Below, in pieces: positions 39,540-55,674 of a stretch of DNA of 64,000 nt. The stretch spans positions 326,384 to 390,383 of the forward strand of contig JAIMAU010000001.1 of assembly GCA_023511795.1 (NCBI GenBank), in the 5' to 3' direction. This stretch comes from Armatimonadota bacterium (GTDB lineage: Bacteria > Armatimonadota > UBA5829 > DTJY01). The position numbers and the translations under genes are program-made. Every line of letters begins with the position of its first letter. Position 1 is the stretch's first letter. The notes under the pieces are model-generated. The model was given only the letters and a program-made list of their open reading frames with translations, made no database searches and was not told the origin of the DNA.

Positions 39540-39568
39540 TTGACATTAGGCGCGGGAGAAGCTATCAT
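39540..39568 (+). promoter_or_regulatory. Promoter of the riboswitch and AICAR transformylase transcript
   Basis: TTGACA (39540-39545) and TATCAT (39563-39568) are spaced 17 bases. The predicted start near 39575 places the RNA 5' end right at the aptamer, as expected for a riboswitch. Confidence 0.68.
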
Positions 39569-39573
39569 TGTTT

Positions 39574-39646
39574 CAGCGTGACTGGCGAATGAGCGGAATT
39601 GACCGCGATGGAGCGCTAATACCTATTGAATGCCGACCGCCTGGGC
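39574..39646 (+). ncRNA. ZTP (pfl) riboswitch aptamer
   Basis: The known conserved parts of the pfl/ZTP motif are present in order: CGTGACTGGCG (39577-39587), a hairpin GCGG/CCGC (39593-39606), GGAGCGC (39610-39616) and CCGCCTGGGC (39637-39646), the 3' pseudoknot element. The last element is also the 5' arm of a strong terminator, so ZTP/ZMP binding would hold the RNA in the antiterminated form. The gene downstream is an AICAR transformylase, whose substrate is ZMP. It is a typical pfl context. Confidence 0.92.
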
Positions 39647-39673
39647 AAAATAACGCCCAGGCTTTTTATTTTT
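39639..39673 (+). terminator. Intrinsic terminator, riboswitch expression platform
   Basis: GCCTGGGC (39639-39646) pairs with GCCCAGGC (39655-39662), loop of 8, followed by TTTTTATTTTT. Its 5' arm is shared with the ZTP aptamer's last element. It stops transcription before the transformylase when ZTP is low. Confidence 0.93.
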
Positions 39674-39766: not shown

Positions 39767-40939
39767 ATGAATCAGCAAGTTATTCCACTTAGGTATGGTA
39801 TGAATCCACATCAGAAGCCTGCACAGGTCATCTTGACTGACAGAAGTCCCAAAATAGAAATTCTGAACGGCACGCCAGGGTATATTAATTTTCTTGATGC
39901 TCTAAACGCTTGGCAGCTCGTTCGAGAACTTAAGGCTGCGCTCAATCTTCCGGCCGCAGCGTCATTTAAGCATGTGAGCCCAGCTGGAGCCGCCGTGGGA
40001 TTGCCACTATCGGATACTTTGAAAAAGGCATATTTTGTTGATGATATGGACTTATCTCCGCTAGCTATTGCCTATGCTCGTGCTCGCGGTGCGGATAGAG
40101 TCTCCTCATTTGGCGATTTCATTGCTTTGAGCGATACCTGCGACCTATCTACTGCGCAGCTTATCAAGCGCGAGGTTTCAGATGGTGTTATAGCGCCGGC
40201 ATACGACGGGGATGCGCTGGCTCTATTGCGAGGGAAGCGTGAAGGCAAATATCTAGTTCTCCGCATTGACCCGGATTATAATCCGCCAGAAATTGAGCAA
40301 CGTCAAGTTTTTGGCGTAACACTTGAGCAGAAACGCAATGACATTAAGATTGATGCCAGCGTACTTGCGAATGTTGTTACAGCGAAAAAGGAAATCCCAC
40401 CAGAAGCTCAGCGGGATTTAGTTGTTGCGCTTATTACATTAAAATATACCCAATCGAACTCTGTCTGCTTTGCCTACGATGGCCAGGTTATAGGCGTTGG
40501 TGCGGGCCAGCAATCTAGAGTGCACTGCACTCGACTGGCCGCCGGGAAAGCGGATCTATGGTGGCTGAGACAGCATCCTAAAGTGCTTGAATTAGAGTTC
40601 AGAAGTGGTTTGAATCGCGCTGAGAAGAATAACGCCATTGATGAGTTTCTCTGCGACGACCTGACTCCTCCTGAAGAGGCGCTTATGCGGGAGAACTTGC
40701 CTGGTGCTCAGCGCTTAACGAAAGAGGAGAAACGCCACTGGCTTGACAAGCTTACAGGAGTCTCACTAGGCTCCGATGCCTTCTTCCCATTCAGGGACAG
40801 CATTGATCGCGCAAGCAGGACAGGCGTAAAATACATAGCCGAGCCAGGTGGGTCAACGCGGGATAATGAAATCATTGCAGCAGCCGATGAATATGGTATG
40901 GTAATGGTATTTACTGGCATTCGCCTGTTCCATCACTAA
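39767..40939 (+). CDS. AICAR transformylase, stand-alone (no IMP cyclohydrolase domain)
   Basis: A 390-residue enzyme that transfers a formyl group from 10-formyl-THF to AICAR (ZMP), the penultimate step of IMP synthesis. Motifs: [24 protein letters not shown] near 65-77, and [33 protein letters not shown] as in PurH. It has only the transformylase part; the MGS-like cyclohydrolase domain of bifunctional PurH is absent and not seen in the window. GGGGGAGG precedes the ATG. Control is by the ZTP riboswitch directly upstream, a sensible feedback on its own substrate pool. Confidence 0.93.
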
Positions 40940-42105: not shown

Positions 42106-42765
42106 TTGTCATATCGAGAAATGCTGTACTACATTGGACGCACACTTTTTAGGCTCGCATTTTGGCTACTTGGTGGGTTAACATCAGTTGGGGCCGAAAA
42201 TATACCTCCTAGCGGCGGTGTTATTCTTGCGCCCAACCATAGGAGCTTTGCGGACCCCCCTGTAGTGGGATGTGGAATGAATCGAAAAGTTCATTATATG
42301 GCAAAGGAAGAGCTTTTCAAAGTTCCAATACTTGGCAAGCTCATACGTGCTGTTGGCTCCTTTCCAGTTCGGCGCGGAACGGCAGACCGAGCTGCTCTCA
42401 AGAAGGCGATTAAGATGTTGGAAGAAGGGCGTGTGATTTGCATCTTCCCCGAGGGTACTCGAAGTGTTGATGGAAAACTGAAAGACCCAGAGTTAGGCAT
42501 TGGCCTTGTAGCACTCAAATCAAGGGCGCCGGTTGTGCCAGTTGCTGTTTTGGGAACAGATAAAGTACTAGGCCCTCATTCTAAGCTTCCTAGAAGACAT
42601 CCGATTAAAGTAGTCTATGGCAAGCCGATTACCTTTGACGACTTGTATGAGGGAAGCCATGGACGCGAAGCCTTGGAGGAAGTTGGCCGTCGGACAATGG
42701 ATGCGATTGCTCGCCTTCTAGCCGAAGCAGGTGACCCTAAAGCAACCGAAAGAAAACAGTCCTAA
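42106..42765 (+). CDS. plsC: 1-acyl-sn-glycerol-3-phosphate acyltransferase
   Basis: Makes phosphatidic acid by acylating lysophosphatidic acid at the membrane. 219 residues. The HX4D motif is NHRSFADPP (H45, D50), and the FPEGTRSVDGKL substrate-binding motif is near 114-125. An N-terminal hydrophobic helix spans about 8-27. The start is TTG 42106 or ATG 42121; neither has a good ribosome binding site. It ends just before a strong promoter for a leader RNA. Confidence 0.88.
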   Translation: MSYREMLYYIGRTLFRLAFWLLGGLTSVGAENIPPSGGVILAPNHRSFADPPVVGCGMNRKVHYMAKEELFKVPILGKLIRAVGSFPVRRGTADRAALKKAIKMLEEGRVICIFPEGTRSVDGKLKDPELGIGLVALKSRAPVVPVAVLGTDKVLGPHSKLPRRHPIKVVYGKPITFDDLYEGSHGREALEEVGRRTMDAIARLLAEAGDPKATERKQS

Positions 42766-42781
42766 ACTTTACACAGAGCTA

Positions 42782-42810
42782 TTGACAAAACGTTTACAAA
42801 TACTTATACT
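42782..42810 (+). promoter_or_regulatory. Strong promoter downstream of plsC
   Basis: TTGACA (42782-42787) and TATACT (42805-42810), 17-base spacing. The predicted start (about 42817) coincides with the first base of the structured RNA's closing stem. Confidence 0.75.
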
Positions 42811-42816
42811 TTTTTG

Positions 42817-43026
42817 TAGCTGGCTCTCGCAAAAGCCTCGAGTGAAAGCATTGTATGCTGAATATTTAGTCAGCCCAGCGTCCACCTTCCGAAGCCGCAA
42901 AACCGCAGGGTGTGCAATCTTCGATTGGGCGCATCTTCACGGATGACTGACGCATGGCGGGAGCGCTAATTGGAAAACCGTTTGCTTATCTTTATAGGGT
43001 TTTGCAACCCTGTGGTATTATTATTT
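42817..43026 (+). ncRNA. Putative structured leader or small RNA, unclassified
   Basis: The 340 bases between plsC and the response regulator hold a strongly paired RNA. TAGC (42817-42820) pairs with GCTA (42965-42968), and GCTCTCGC (42823-42830) with GCGGGAGC (42957-42964), making a ~12-bp closing stem. Inside are AGCAT/ATGCT (42848-42860), GTCAG/CTGAC (42869-42873 with 42947-42951), CCCA/TGGG and CACC/GGTG helices. A segment CCGCAAAACCGCAGGG (42895-42910) is reminiscent of, but not equal to, the conserved core of c-di-GMP-I aptamers. A terminator-like hairpin lies at 42996-43011. It could be a regulatory leader of the regulator gene or a separate sRNA. Confidence 0.5.
42996..43026 (+). terminator. 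Weak terminator-like hairpin before the response regulator
   Basis: AGGGTT (42996-43001) pairs with AACCCT (43006-43011), loop TTGC, followed by an interrupted T-rich run (TATTATTATTT). It could end the structured RNA above or attenuate the regulator gene. Read by eye. Confidence 0.35.
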
Positions 43027-43105
43027 CCCGCAGGTCTAATTGAAAGCCTTATGCAACAGCAACACTAAGATCTTAAAGCGTTCAACGGAAGAGAGGTTTT
43101 TGACC

Positions 43106-43807
43106 GTGGCCAAACAGAAAGTTCTTGTAGTTGACGATGATGAAAACACTTGTGAATTGGTAAGGCTTCAGTTGGAGATGGCCGGATTCGAGCCAGTGTG
43201 TGCTTATAACGGAAAGGAAGGACTAGCAGTTGCCCGCGAGCACCGGCCCAATTTGATAATCCTCGACCTTATGCTCCCAGAGTTAGATGGAATAGAGGTA
43301 TGCCGTGAAATTCGACGTTTCTCCGATGTCCCAATTATTATGCTAACAGGCAAGGGTGATGAGTTCGATAGAGTACTTGGGTTGGAAATGGGTGCGGATG
43401 ACTATGTAGTAAAGCCGTTTAGCCCGCGTGAACTTATCGCCCGAGTAAAGGCAGTCTCGCGGCGCACGAAGCAGGCGGCAAGCCAAGAAGACCAGCAGGT
43501 TCTAAACTTCCCCGGTTTCTATATTAACCTTCTTTCAAGGGAAGTAAGGGTTAATAACGAAAAGGTAAGCCTAACTCCAAAAGAATTCGATTTGCTCTGG
43601 CATTTGGCAAGCAATCGAGACAGAGTGTTCACTCGTGAGCAGCTCCTTAAACAGGTTTGGGATTATGATGAGTTTTTTGGCGACGAGCGAACGGTGGACC
43701 AGCATGTAAAGCGGCTAAGGCGAAAAATTGAAAGAGATAATTCTTCATGTAGGATAGCTACCATTTGGGGAGTTGGCTATAAGTTCGAATTTAACAACAA
43801 TAAGTAA
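43106..43807 (+). CDS. OmpR/PhoB-family response regulator
   Basis: A 233-residue DNA-binding regulator. The receiver domain has phosphoacceptor D54 in IILDLMLPELDG, the acidic pocket DDDE, and the conserved Lys in DDYVVKPF. The winged-helix output domain (about 130-230) shows LTPKEFDLLWHLASN, VWDYDEFFGDERTVDQHVKRLRRKIE and IWGVGYKFE. GTG 43106 is chosen because GAGAGG lies 9 bases before it. No cognate kinase is adjacent, so it is an orphan by position. The long structured leader upstream may control it. Confidence 0.93.
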   Translation: MAKQKVLVVDDDENTCELVRLQLEMAGFEPVCAYNGKEGLAVAREHRPNLIILDLMLPELDGIEVCREIRRFSDVPIIMLTGKGDEFDRVLGLEMGADDYVVKPFSPRELIARVKAVSRRTKQAASQEDQQVLNFPGFYINLLSREVRVNNEKVSLTPKEFDLLWHLASNRDRVFTREQLLKQVWDYDEFFGDERTVDQHVKRLRRKIERDNSSCRIATIWGVGYKFEFNNNK

Positions 43808-43992
43808 TGGCAGCTTACAACCAGTTTGGTCTGAGTTGGCTCGTAATTTAAGCGATAGAACCCCACGAAATTACATGAACCGCACATTCATATGCCTAAG
43901 GGTTCGATTGATCATTCTCCGAAGGATTTTTCCCTTGCAGTGATGAACTTCTATTCTGAATAATCCTCATTATTCCTTCTAGGAGGTTTTTG

Positions 43993-46128
43993 ATGCGGTC
44001 TAACTTTATTTTAAGGCCAGTGTTGCTTGCCAGCCTGGCCATCTTACTGTTAATTGTCTCATTTGGATGGGCACAAGATATCCCAGATTTTACTTTTATC
44101 CATGGCAGCGACTCACATCTGCCTGACAGTATGTCTTCAACGCAATCAGTAATAAGCGAAATCGCAAATCTCGGCGAAATAAACTTGTTGCCTTATAAAG
44201 TAACAGTACCTGCGCCGTCTTTTGTCATAGTAACTGGCGACCTTACGGAGTTTGGTCCTTTCCAGGGCGGTCTTGATGCTTATCTTAACTGCTGGAAGAA
44301 TGTAAAAATTCCTATCTACAACCAATCTGGCAATCATGACGGTACATGGTATTGTATCCGCCGCGCACTTCGTAGATGGCATGGGTCGCACTGTTATTCA
44401 TTTGATTTTAACGATTGCCACTTCATTGGTTTAGATACCTCCACACCTCAAGATCCTCGTCCGACCATTACGACCGAACAGCTTCTTTGGCTAAAAGAGG
44501 ATTTCAAGAAGGTGAAGCCTACTACGCCGGTTTTTCTATTCTTTCATCATCCCCTATATGGAAGTGAGTTTGCAAGCGAATTCGAGTGCGATAGGCTTGT
44601 AGATATTTTGCGCCCTTATAATGTCGTTCTTATGATGGCTGGGCATTCACACGGACATGTACTTGCAAATGCAGTGGGATATGATCTTGTAACCGGTGGT
44701 TCGTTCTTAAAGCCTGACCCGGGGTTTAGCATAGTATCTGTAAAAGATGGCATTCTGCGCGTTGCATATAAAAAAGCGGGAGAAAAGGATGCTACTATTC
44801 CGATTCTTCAGAAGCCACTTTCTATAAAAAGCACCTATCCCGAAATCAAAATATTAGAGCCCCAGGAGGGCAAAGTATATGCAGGCGACTCAGTTCCTGT
44901 AATTGTAACTATTACTGGAAATACTAGCCGTATAAATGTGGCCACCTATAAGGTTGATGGAGAAGTTGTTGGCGATTTTATGTTGGAGATGGAACAATAC
45001 AAAGATTCCCTAGATATACGCCAGCTTCAGCCTGGCGCTCATTACCTAAAAGTTACTTTTACCGACGAAAATGGTAGCACCTTCCAAAAGTCGGTAAGCT
45101 TCTACACGGAATCATCTTCGGGTGCTAAAGCTATTTGGCGAGCATTCGCGGGCGGTTCATGTAAAGGCGCGCCTGCCATTACCAATGATGCGGTTTATGT
45201 TGGTGCTACTGATGGCAAGCTTTATGCTTTTAGACGTTCAGATGGAAAACTGCTCTGGACTTTCAAGACAGGAGGCGAGATACTGTGTCAGCCACTTGTG
45301 GTGAATGATACAGTATATTTCGGCTCAGGCGATGCTAAATTCTATGCTGTTGGCATAGATGGTAAGCTGAAATGGTCATATAATGCAGGCGGTCCTATTT
45401 ATTCTTCACCTGTGCTGGCAGGTGATTTAATAATATTCGGATGCAACGACTCCAAGCTCTATGCACTCAATTCATCCGGAAAATTAGTTTGGGCGAACGA
45501 TGACGCCGCCTATACTATTGAGAGCAAACCATTTGTTGACGGCGATACTGTTTACTTTGGCGCTTGGGATACTTATGTTTATGCTGTTGACGTCAAGACT
45601 GGTGCCACAAAATGGAAATGTGTTGGCTATGGTTCAGCAACAAAGCCTGCAGCTAGATATTATAGTCCAGCCGACTGTGGGCCCGTTGTTTCAAATGGCA
45701 AGGTGTTTATTGCAGATAGGAACATGAGTTTAAGCATAATAGACGCCGCTTCGGGCAAGATGTTAGATCACCGCGATAACTGCGCAGGGGTGGGGCTGTC
45801 CGAGGACGGACAACATGTATACCTCAGAGGCGATTCGAATAATGTCACAAAGATAGATCTTGAGGGGAAAGATGTCTGGAGCGTAAATGCTGGCGTACGG
45901 TTCATGCCAGCGGCCCCGACTGAGCGCGACGGCGTAGTTTATGTATGCACAAACACTGGCACGCTAAAAGCTTTATCTGCTTCAGATGGCAGCCTTTTGT
46001 GGACTTATCAGGTTACTCCGCGTCTTTTCGTAATGTCGAGCGTTGAGGCAAAAGACGGCGTTGCCTTCGTCACTGGCATGGATGGTAGCATAACGGCAAT
46101 CTCAGGAGGGTCAACCATAGCGAATTAA
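43993..46128 (+). CDS. Secreted metallophosphoesterase with PQQ-type beta-propeller
   Basis: A 711-residue exported protein. A signal peptide lies at about 9-28 (LLASLAILLLIVSFGWAQ). The calcineurin-like phosphoesterase domain (about 33-240) has GSDSHLPD, VTGDLTEFGP, SGNHDG, FFHHPLYG and AGHSHGH, giving the full metal set. An Ig-like domain follows (about 290-370), then a propeller of PQQ/YWTD-like repeats (about 385-705) such as VYVGATDGKLYAFRRSDGK, VYFGSGDAKFYAV and IIFGCNDSKLYAL. AGGAGG at 43981-43986 precedes the ATG by 6. The substrate may be a phosphate ester or nucleotide outside the cell; unknown. Confidence 0.88.
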   Translation: MRSNFILRPVLLASLAILLLIVSFGWAQDIPDFTFIHGSDSHLPDSMSSTQSVISEIANLGEINLLPYKVTVPAPSFVIVTGDLTEFGPFQGGLDAYLNCWKNVKIPIYNQSGNHDGTWYCIRRALRRWHGSHCYSFDFNDCHFIGLDTSTPQDPRPTITTEQLLWLKEDFKKVKPTTPVFLFFHHPLYGSEFASEFECDRLVDILRPYNVVLMMAGHSHGHVLANAVGYDLVTGGSFLKPDPGFSIVSVKDGILRVAYKKAGEKDATIPILQKPLSIKSTYPEIKILEPQEGKVYAGDSVPVIVTITGNTSRINVATYKVDGEVVGDFMLEMEQYKDSLDIRQLQPGAHYLKVTFTDENGSTFQKSVSFYTESSSGAKAIWRAFAGGSCKGAPAITNDAVYVGATDGKLYAFRRSDGKLLWTFKTGGEILCQPLVVNDTVYFGSGDAKFYAVGIDGKLKWSYNAGGPIYSSPVLAGDLIIFGCNDSKLYALNSSGKLVWANDDAAYTIESKPFVDGDTVYFGAWDTYVYAVDVKTGATKWKCVGYGSATKPAARYYSPADCGPVVSNGKVFIADRNMSLSIIDAASGKMLDHRDNCAGVGLSEDGQHVYLRGDSNNVTKIDLEGKDVWSVNAGVRFMPAAPTERDGVVYVCTNTGTLKALSASDGSLLWTYQVTPRLFVMSSVEAKDGVAFVTGMDGSITAISGGSTIAN

Positions 46129-55585: not shown

Positions 55586-55674
55586 GGAGGGGTGCCGGAG
55601 TGGTTTATCGGAGCGGTCTTGAAAACCGTCCTGGCGATGAGCCAGCGCGAGTTCGAATCTCGCCCCCTCCGCCA
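55586..55674 (+). tRNA. tRNA-Ser (anticodon UGA), CCA encoded
   Basis: The acceptor arms GGAGGGG (55586-55592) and CCCCTCC (55664-55670) pair, followed by discriminator G and encoded CCA (55672-55674). The anticodon loop CTTGAAA gives UGA, reading UCN codons. A long variable arm (TGGC...GCCA) and GTTCGAATC T loop confirm a class II serine tRNA. Confidence 0.97.

Follow-up and report, generated by a model that had tools for sequence, protein, structure and literature searches.

The window analyzed here, a 64,000-nt stretch of a 3.09-Mb genome, contains a candidate RNA element flanked by plsC (Pfam Acyltransferase) and a gene for an OmpR/PhoB-type response regulator (RR), whose nearest named relatives in our search come from Armatimonadota. 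An initial annotation had described the element as an unclassified structured RNA, perhaps of a new class, with its own strong promoter, a closing stem around several inner helices, and a terminator-like hairpin. Its placement between plsC and a response regulator agrees with the Pfam domains of both neighbors. The RR gene (43106..43807, on the + strand like the promoter, hairpins, and leader described below) encodes a 233-amino-acid protein with the domains PF00072 (Response_reg) and PF00486 (Trans_reg_C). The best NCBIfam models for this protein are MtrA, YycF, and PhoB, every score being below the cut-off. Its GTG start codon at 43106 opens the string GTG-GCC/T-AAA/G-CAG, which is common to the whole RR family, and a probable ribosome-binding site, GGAAGAGAGG, is located just 5' of it at 43087..43096. 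Directly downstream of the RR gene, 43990-46128 encodes a calcineurin-like phosphoesterase domain fused to a PQQ/BamB-type beta-propeller.

The near-consensus promoter reported in the initial annotation is present: a sigma-70-type TTGACA-17-TATACT sequence at 42782..42810 matches the consensus at 11 of 12 positions. In order to evaluate which transcript it serves, we scored the regions upstream of close RR orthologues from the class. All 22 of them carry a near-consensus promoter (10 to 11 of 12 positions each), with a spacer of 17 nt in 21 cases and 18 nt in the remaining one. The distance from the -10 box to the conserved protein start is 81 to 116 nt in 17 genomes of families f2 to f5. In f1, the family of the candidate, it is 258 to 433 nt (5 genomes), and long leaders were found only there. 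The plsC-leader-RR gene order is also present in three other f1 genomes, G002, G003, and G004, whose leaders at the orthologous position measure 433 nt (L086), 312 nt (L087), and 258 nt (L088), respectively, and cannot be aligned with one another. Since the promoter is orthologous across the class and the synteny is kept in f1, we assign 42782-42810 to the RR gene and regard the candidate as its extended leader. The restriction of long leaders to f1 suggests that leader length probably jumped once in this family, after which the sequence would have turned over fast. At several of the orthologous sites (L084-L105), we observed GATGAGCTTA or GATGAGTT shortly 3' of the -10 box, which suggests a conserved start-proximal element or an operator. 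TTTACA repeats (reverse complement TGTAAA) also surround the -35 box at 42769-42798 and, judged by eye, are not kept in relatives; they resemble WalR-type half-sites and may form an autoregulatory operator.

With its start placed from the position of the -10 box, the leader covers 42817..43105, about 290 nt up to the start codon. Alignable leaders come from two species only, this genome and its sister species G001, between which 9 of 289 leader sites differ (3.1%). The same species pair differs at 195 of 1295 four-fold degenerate sites (15%; leader lower, Fisher p = 5e-10) and at 50 of 430 other intergenic sites (12%; leader lower, p = 2e-5). The excess of four-fold changes over leader changes indicates that the leader has been under purifying selection along its length within the genus. 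Divergence stays low up to the start codon, with only 2 changes in 42971-43105, downstream of the domain supposed to be an aptamer. Constraint reaching this far indicates a function for the leader, without setting the supposed aptamer apart from the rest of it. Together, the orthologous promoter, the synteny, and the conservation up to the start codon are those of a 5' untranslated region (5' UTR).

We then compared the proposed structure with shuffled sequences and with the sister species. The closing stem of the initial annotation (42817-42830 with 42957-42968) can form as a helix of 8 + 4 bp, UAGC..GCUCUCGC with GCGGGAGC-GCUA, beginning about 7 nt past the -10 box, but a helix of equal or better score was obtained in 22 of 300 shuffles (7%), and one of its outer pairs is broken in the sister species. 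Likewise, the inner helices exist on paper, but the fold of the domain (42817-42970) is no better than that of shuffles, with z = -1.0 (an equally good fold in 39 of 200 shuffles) and z = -0.83 in a second estimate. The fold of the whole leader is also at shuffle level (z = -0.41). In the minimum-energy fold with the proposed stem, 4 of 7 substitutions fall on paired columns and all 4 break the pair, leaving 0 compensatory changes in this two-sequence comparison. An Alifold consensus, fitted to the same two sequences, showed 3 one-sided consistent changes and 1 break. The energy of this consensus is ordinary relative to random mutants with the same substitutions (equalled by a fraction of 0.70 of the mutants for the domain). 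The pairing profiles of the two species are somewhat more alike than usual among such mutants (equalled by 0.125 of them for the domain and by 0.022 when the second hairpin is included). In one small alternative hairpin, the pair 42859/42868 changes from U-A to C-G, which looks compensatory but was judged unconvincing given that several alternative folds had been tried. Local structure in the leader is thus possible but unproven.

Only two local hairpins stood out, and both are moderately unusual. The first is rod-like (7+5+3+3 bp) and spans 42878..42932; its segment, 42876-42938, has z = -2.5, uncorrected for segment choice. The rod is invariant in both species (0 of 55 sites substituted), so that covariation has no bearing on its predicted pairing. 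The second is an extended hairpin of about 61 nt at 42993..43053 (-20.2 kcal/mol), with z = -2.6 for the segment 42993-43056, again uncorrected for segment choice, and a single substitution in 61 sites relative to the sister species, in the loop at 43021. This hairpin competes with the terminator-like one of the initial annotation (42992..43015, -10.3 kcal/mol) and, with roughly double its stability, can take its place once 43053 has been transcribed. The terminator-like hairpin exists on paper, but its U-tract is poor: the tail, UAUUAUUAUUU, is interrupted by A and reads UAUUAAUAUUU in the sister species. The site therefore does not show the GC-rich hairpin followed by an uninterrupted U-tract of an intrinsic terminator or attenuator, and such terminator-like sites occur at chance level, with 20 seen in 20 kb of the window versus 21.9 expected from shuffles. 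From these features, the hairpin at 42992-43015 is probably not a working terminator.

In keeping with the initial description of the element as unclassified, cmsearch against Rfam placed the leader in no known family at gathering score, and the weak matches (E up to 10) were far below the cut-off. The reported likeness to the core of the c-di-GMP-I riboswitch (GEMM-I, RF01051) was not upheld: it is confined to a short core-like string, whereas the Rfam scan of 42770-43110, with E values of up to 10 admitted, gave no match to this family. We also rejected 6S RNA (RF00013), which the element resembles in length and closing stem, as the 6S RNA of this genome is encoded on another contig (G000:C2:143182-143376, 90.5 bits). 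A covariance model of 42817-42970 recovered only the two congeners across the class, a further match at E 8.8 being noise. The same model, run on 291 genomes of the phylum with stricter filtering, under which weak matches may be missed, gave 2 genomes, both from the genus. The search for covariation in relatives proposed with the initial annotation yielded nothing beyond the genus in these genomes and, in the fold with the proposed stem, 0 compensatory changes. Leaders of RR genes from sister genera gave no match in a covariance search with the filters off, and they also fold at shuffle level. BLAST among the leaders of the family returned only chance matches of 8 to 13 nt, and a DNA search with the G004 leader recovered only itself. 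A 27-nt match in genome G008 (E 4e-4) was taken as chance, as it lies in an unrelated context and reads as protein coding on the opposite strand. A pattern scan of viral contigs gave no match, and a literature search returned nothing specific on Armatimonadota leaders.

A positive control was available in the same window. A ZMP/ZTP riboswitch (RF01750) at 39568-39653 scored 64.5 bits versus a gathering score of 39, and this riboswitch and a tRNA were the only Rfam matches in the whole window; a tRNA-Ser(TGA) lies at 55586-55674. The ZTP element sits just 3' of a near-consensus promoter (39540-39568) and overlaps a strong terminator-like hairpin at 39639-39662 with a T-rich tail (GCCTGGGC..GCCCAGGC-TTTTTATTTT). 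An open reading frame at 39767, a putative gene for AICAR formyltransferase/PurH, lies downstream of it. The ZTP element and the RR leader both follow a near-consensus promoter, but the family match and the strong hairpin followed by T-rich sequence belong to the former alone. Recovery of the ZTP riboswitch shows that a true riboswitch in this window can be found by the methods used, and the RR leader lacks its marks. Of 85 sites in the ZTP aptamer, 6 are changed in the sister species, so sequence conservation alone cannot tell this riboswitch from the RR leader.

The proposal of a riboswitch-like leader or a small RNA (sRNA) can be weighed against these results. In a riboswitch or attenuator, the stem 42817-42830/42957-42968 would close an aptamer and the terminator-like hairpin (42992-43022) would be the expression platform, with CCGCAGGGU, in the domain, pairing with ACCCUGUGG, in the 3' half of the hairpin, as the antiterminator. 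The position of the leader behind a promoter and the purifying selection on it are consistent with this scheme, and the two pairings are indeed mutually exclusive, the minimum-energy fold of 42810-43022 using the alternative one. However, the fold energy at shuffle level, the uncompensated loss of pairs in the fold with the proposed stem, the poor U-tract that is altered in the sister species, and the extended hairpin that outcompetes the terminator-like one all speak against it. Riboswitch classes are normally widespread, and no homologue was found beyond the genus in the 291 phylum genomes. We therefore regard a riboswitch or attenuator as unlikely. A related possibility is that the long f1 leaders (258 to 433 nt) represent one fast-evolving, signal-sensing regulatory RNA that controls the RR gene and has kept its structure while its sequence turned over, which we consider highly improbable. 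A new class of RNA would be expected to precede related genes in a range of species, and the domain was found in 2 of 291 phylum genomes; with its energy at shuffle level, 4 broken pairs, and dissimilar leaders in the sister genera, the suggestion of a new structured RNA could not be maintained.

An independent sRNA of about 150 to 200 nt, sited upstream of the RR gene by happenstance, would account for the strong promoter and for a possible hairpin end. This part of the initial proposal is less likely than a leader because the promoter is that of the RR gene class-wide, even where only 81 to 116 nt separate the -10 box from the protein start, and because no convincing terminator follows. Moreover, conservation continues beyond the putative end of such an sRNA to the start codon, no copies occur elsewhere in the class, and the 6S RNA is encoded elsewhere, which together make an independent sRNA quite unlikely. 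Conversely, the leader could lack any function at the RNA level and be conserved for transcription factor sites or a short upstream open reading frame. The whole leader shows no structural signal above shuffles, and a 29-codon frame starting at ATG 42954 is open in both species, but its 1 synonymous and 1 nonsynonymous change give no coding signature, and binding sites are not expected to constrain 289 nt, so that this explanation is very unlikely. An open reading frame at 42731-42946 was disregarded, as its start lies within plsC and 5' of the promoter.

The shared promoter, the long leaders restricted to f1, and the synteny argue for reading 42817-43105 as a long, lineage-specific 5' UTR belonging to the RR gene, under selection and most likely acting in cis, rather than as a free-standing RNA; we give this interpretation a probability of about 0.68. 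RNA polymerase would start at the class-conserved promoter 42782-42810, as the comparison of orthologues suggests, and continue past the leader to transcribe the RR coding sequence. The leader, which probably grew or was inserted in f1 and diverges quickly between genera, would most likely act in cis after initiation. The rod 42878-42932 and the hairpin 42993-43053 may set the stability of the mRNA or access to the ribosome-binding site 43087-43096, and the leader is possibly the target of a protein or an sRNA. The locus resembles bacterial regulator genes with long, structured 5' UTRs in its strong promoter, its few hundred untranslated nucleotides, the regulator gene itself, and its conservation in a narrow lineage, but differs from them in that no ligand, protein, sRNA, or ribosome access mechanism has been demonstrated for it. 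This case illustrates that a genuine promoter combined with a plausible fold can mimic a new riboswitch, even though a lineage-specific 5' UTR is all that statistics and comparison support. Should the leader be regulatory, it would add a post-transcriptional layer to the control of a class-wide response regulator in one family of Armatimonadota.
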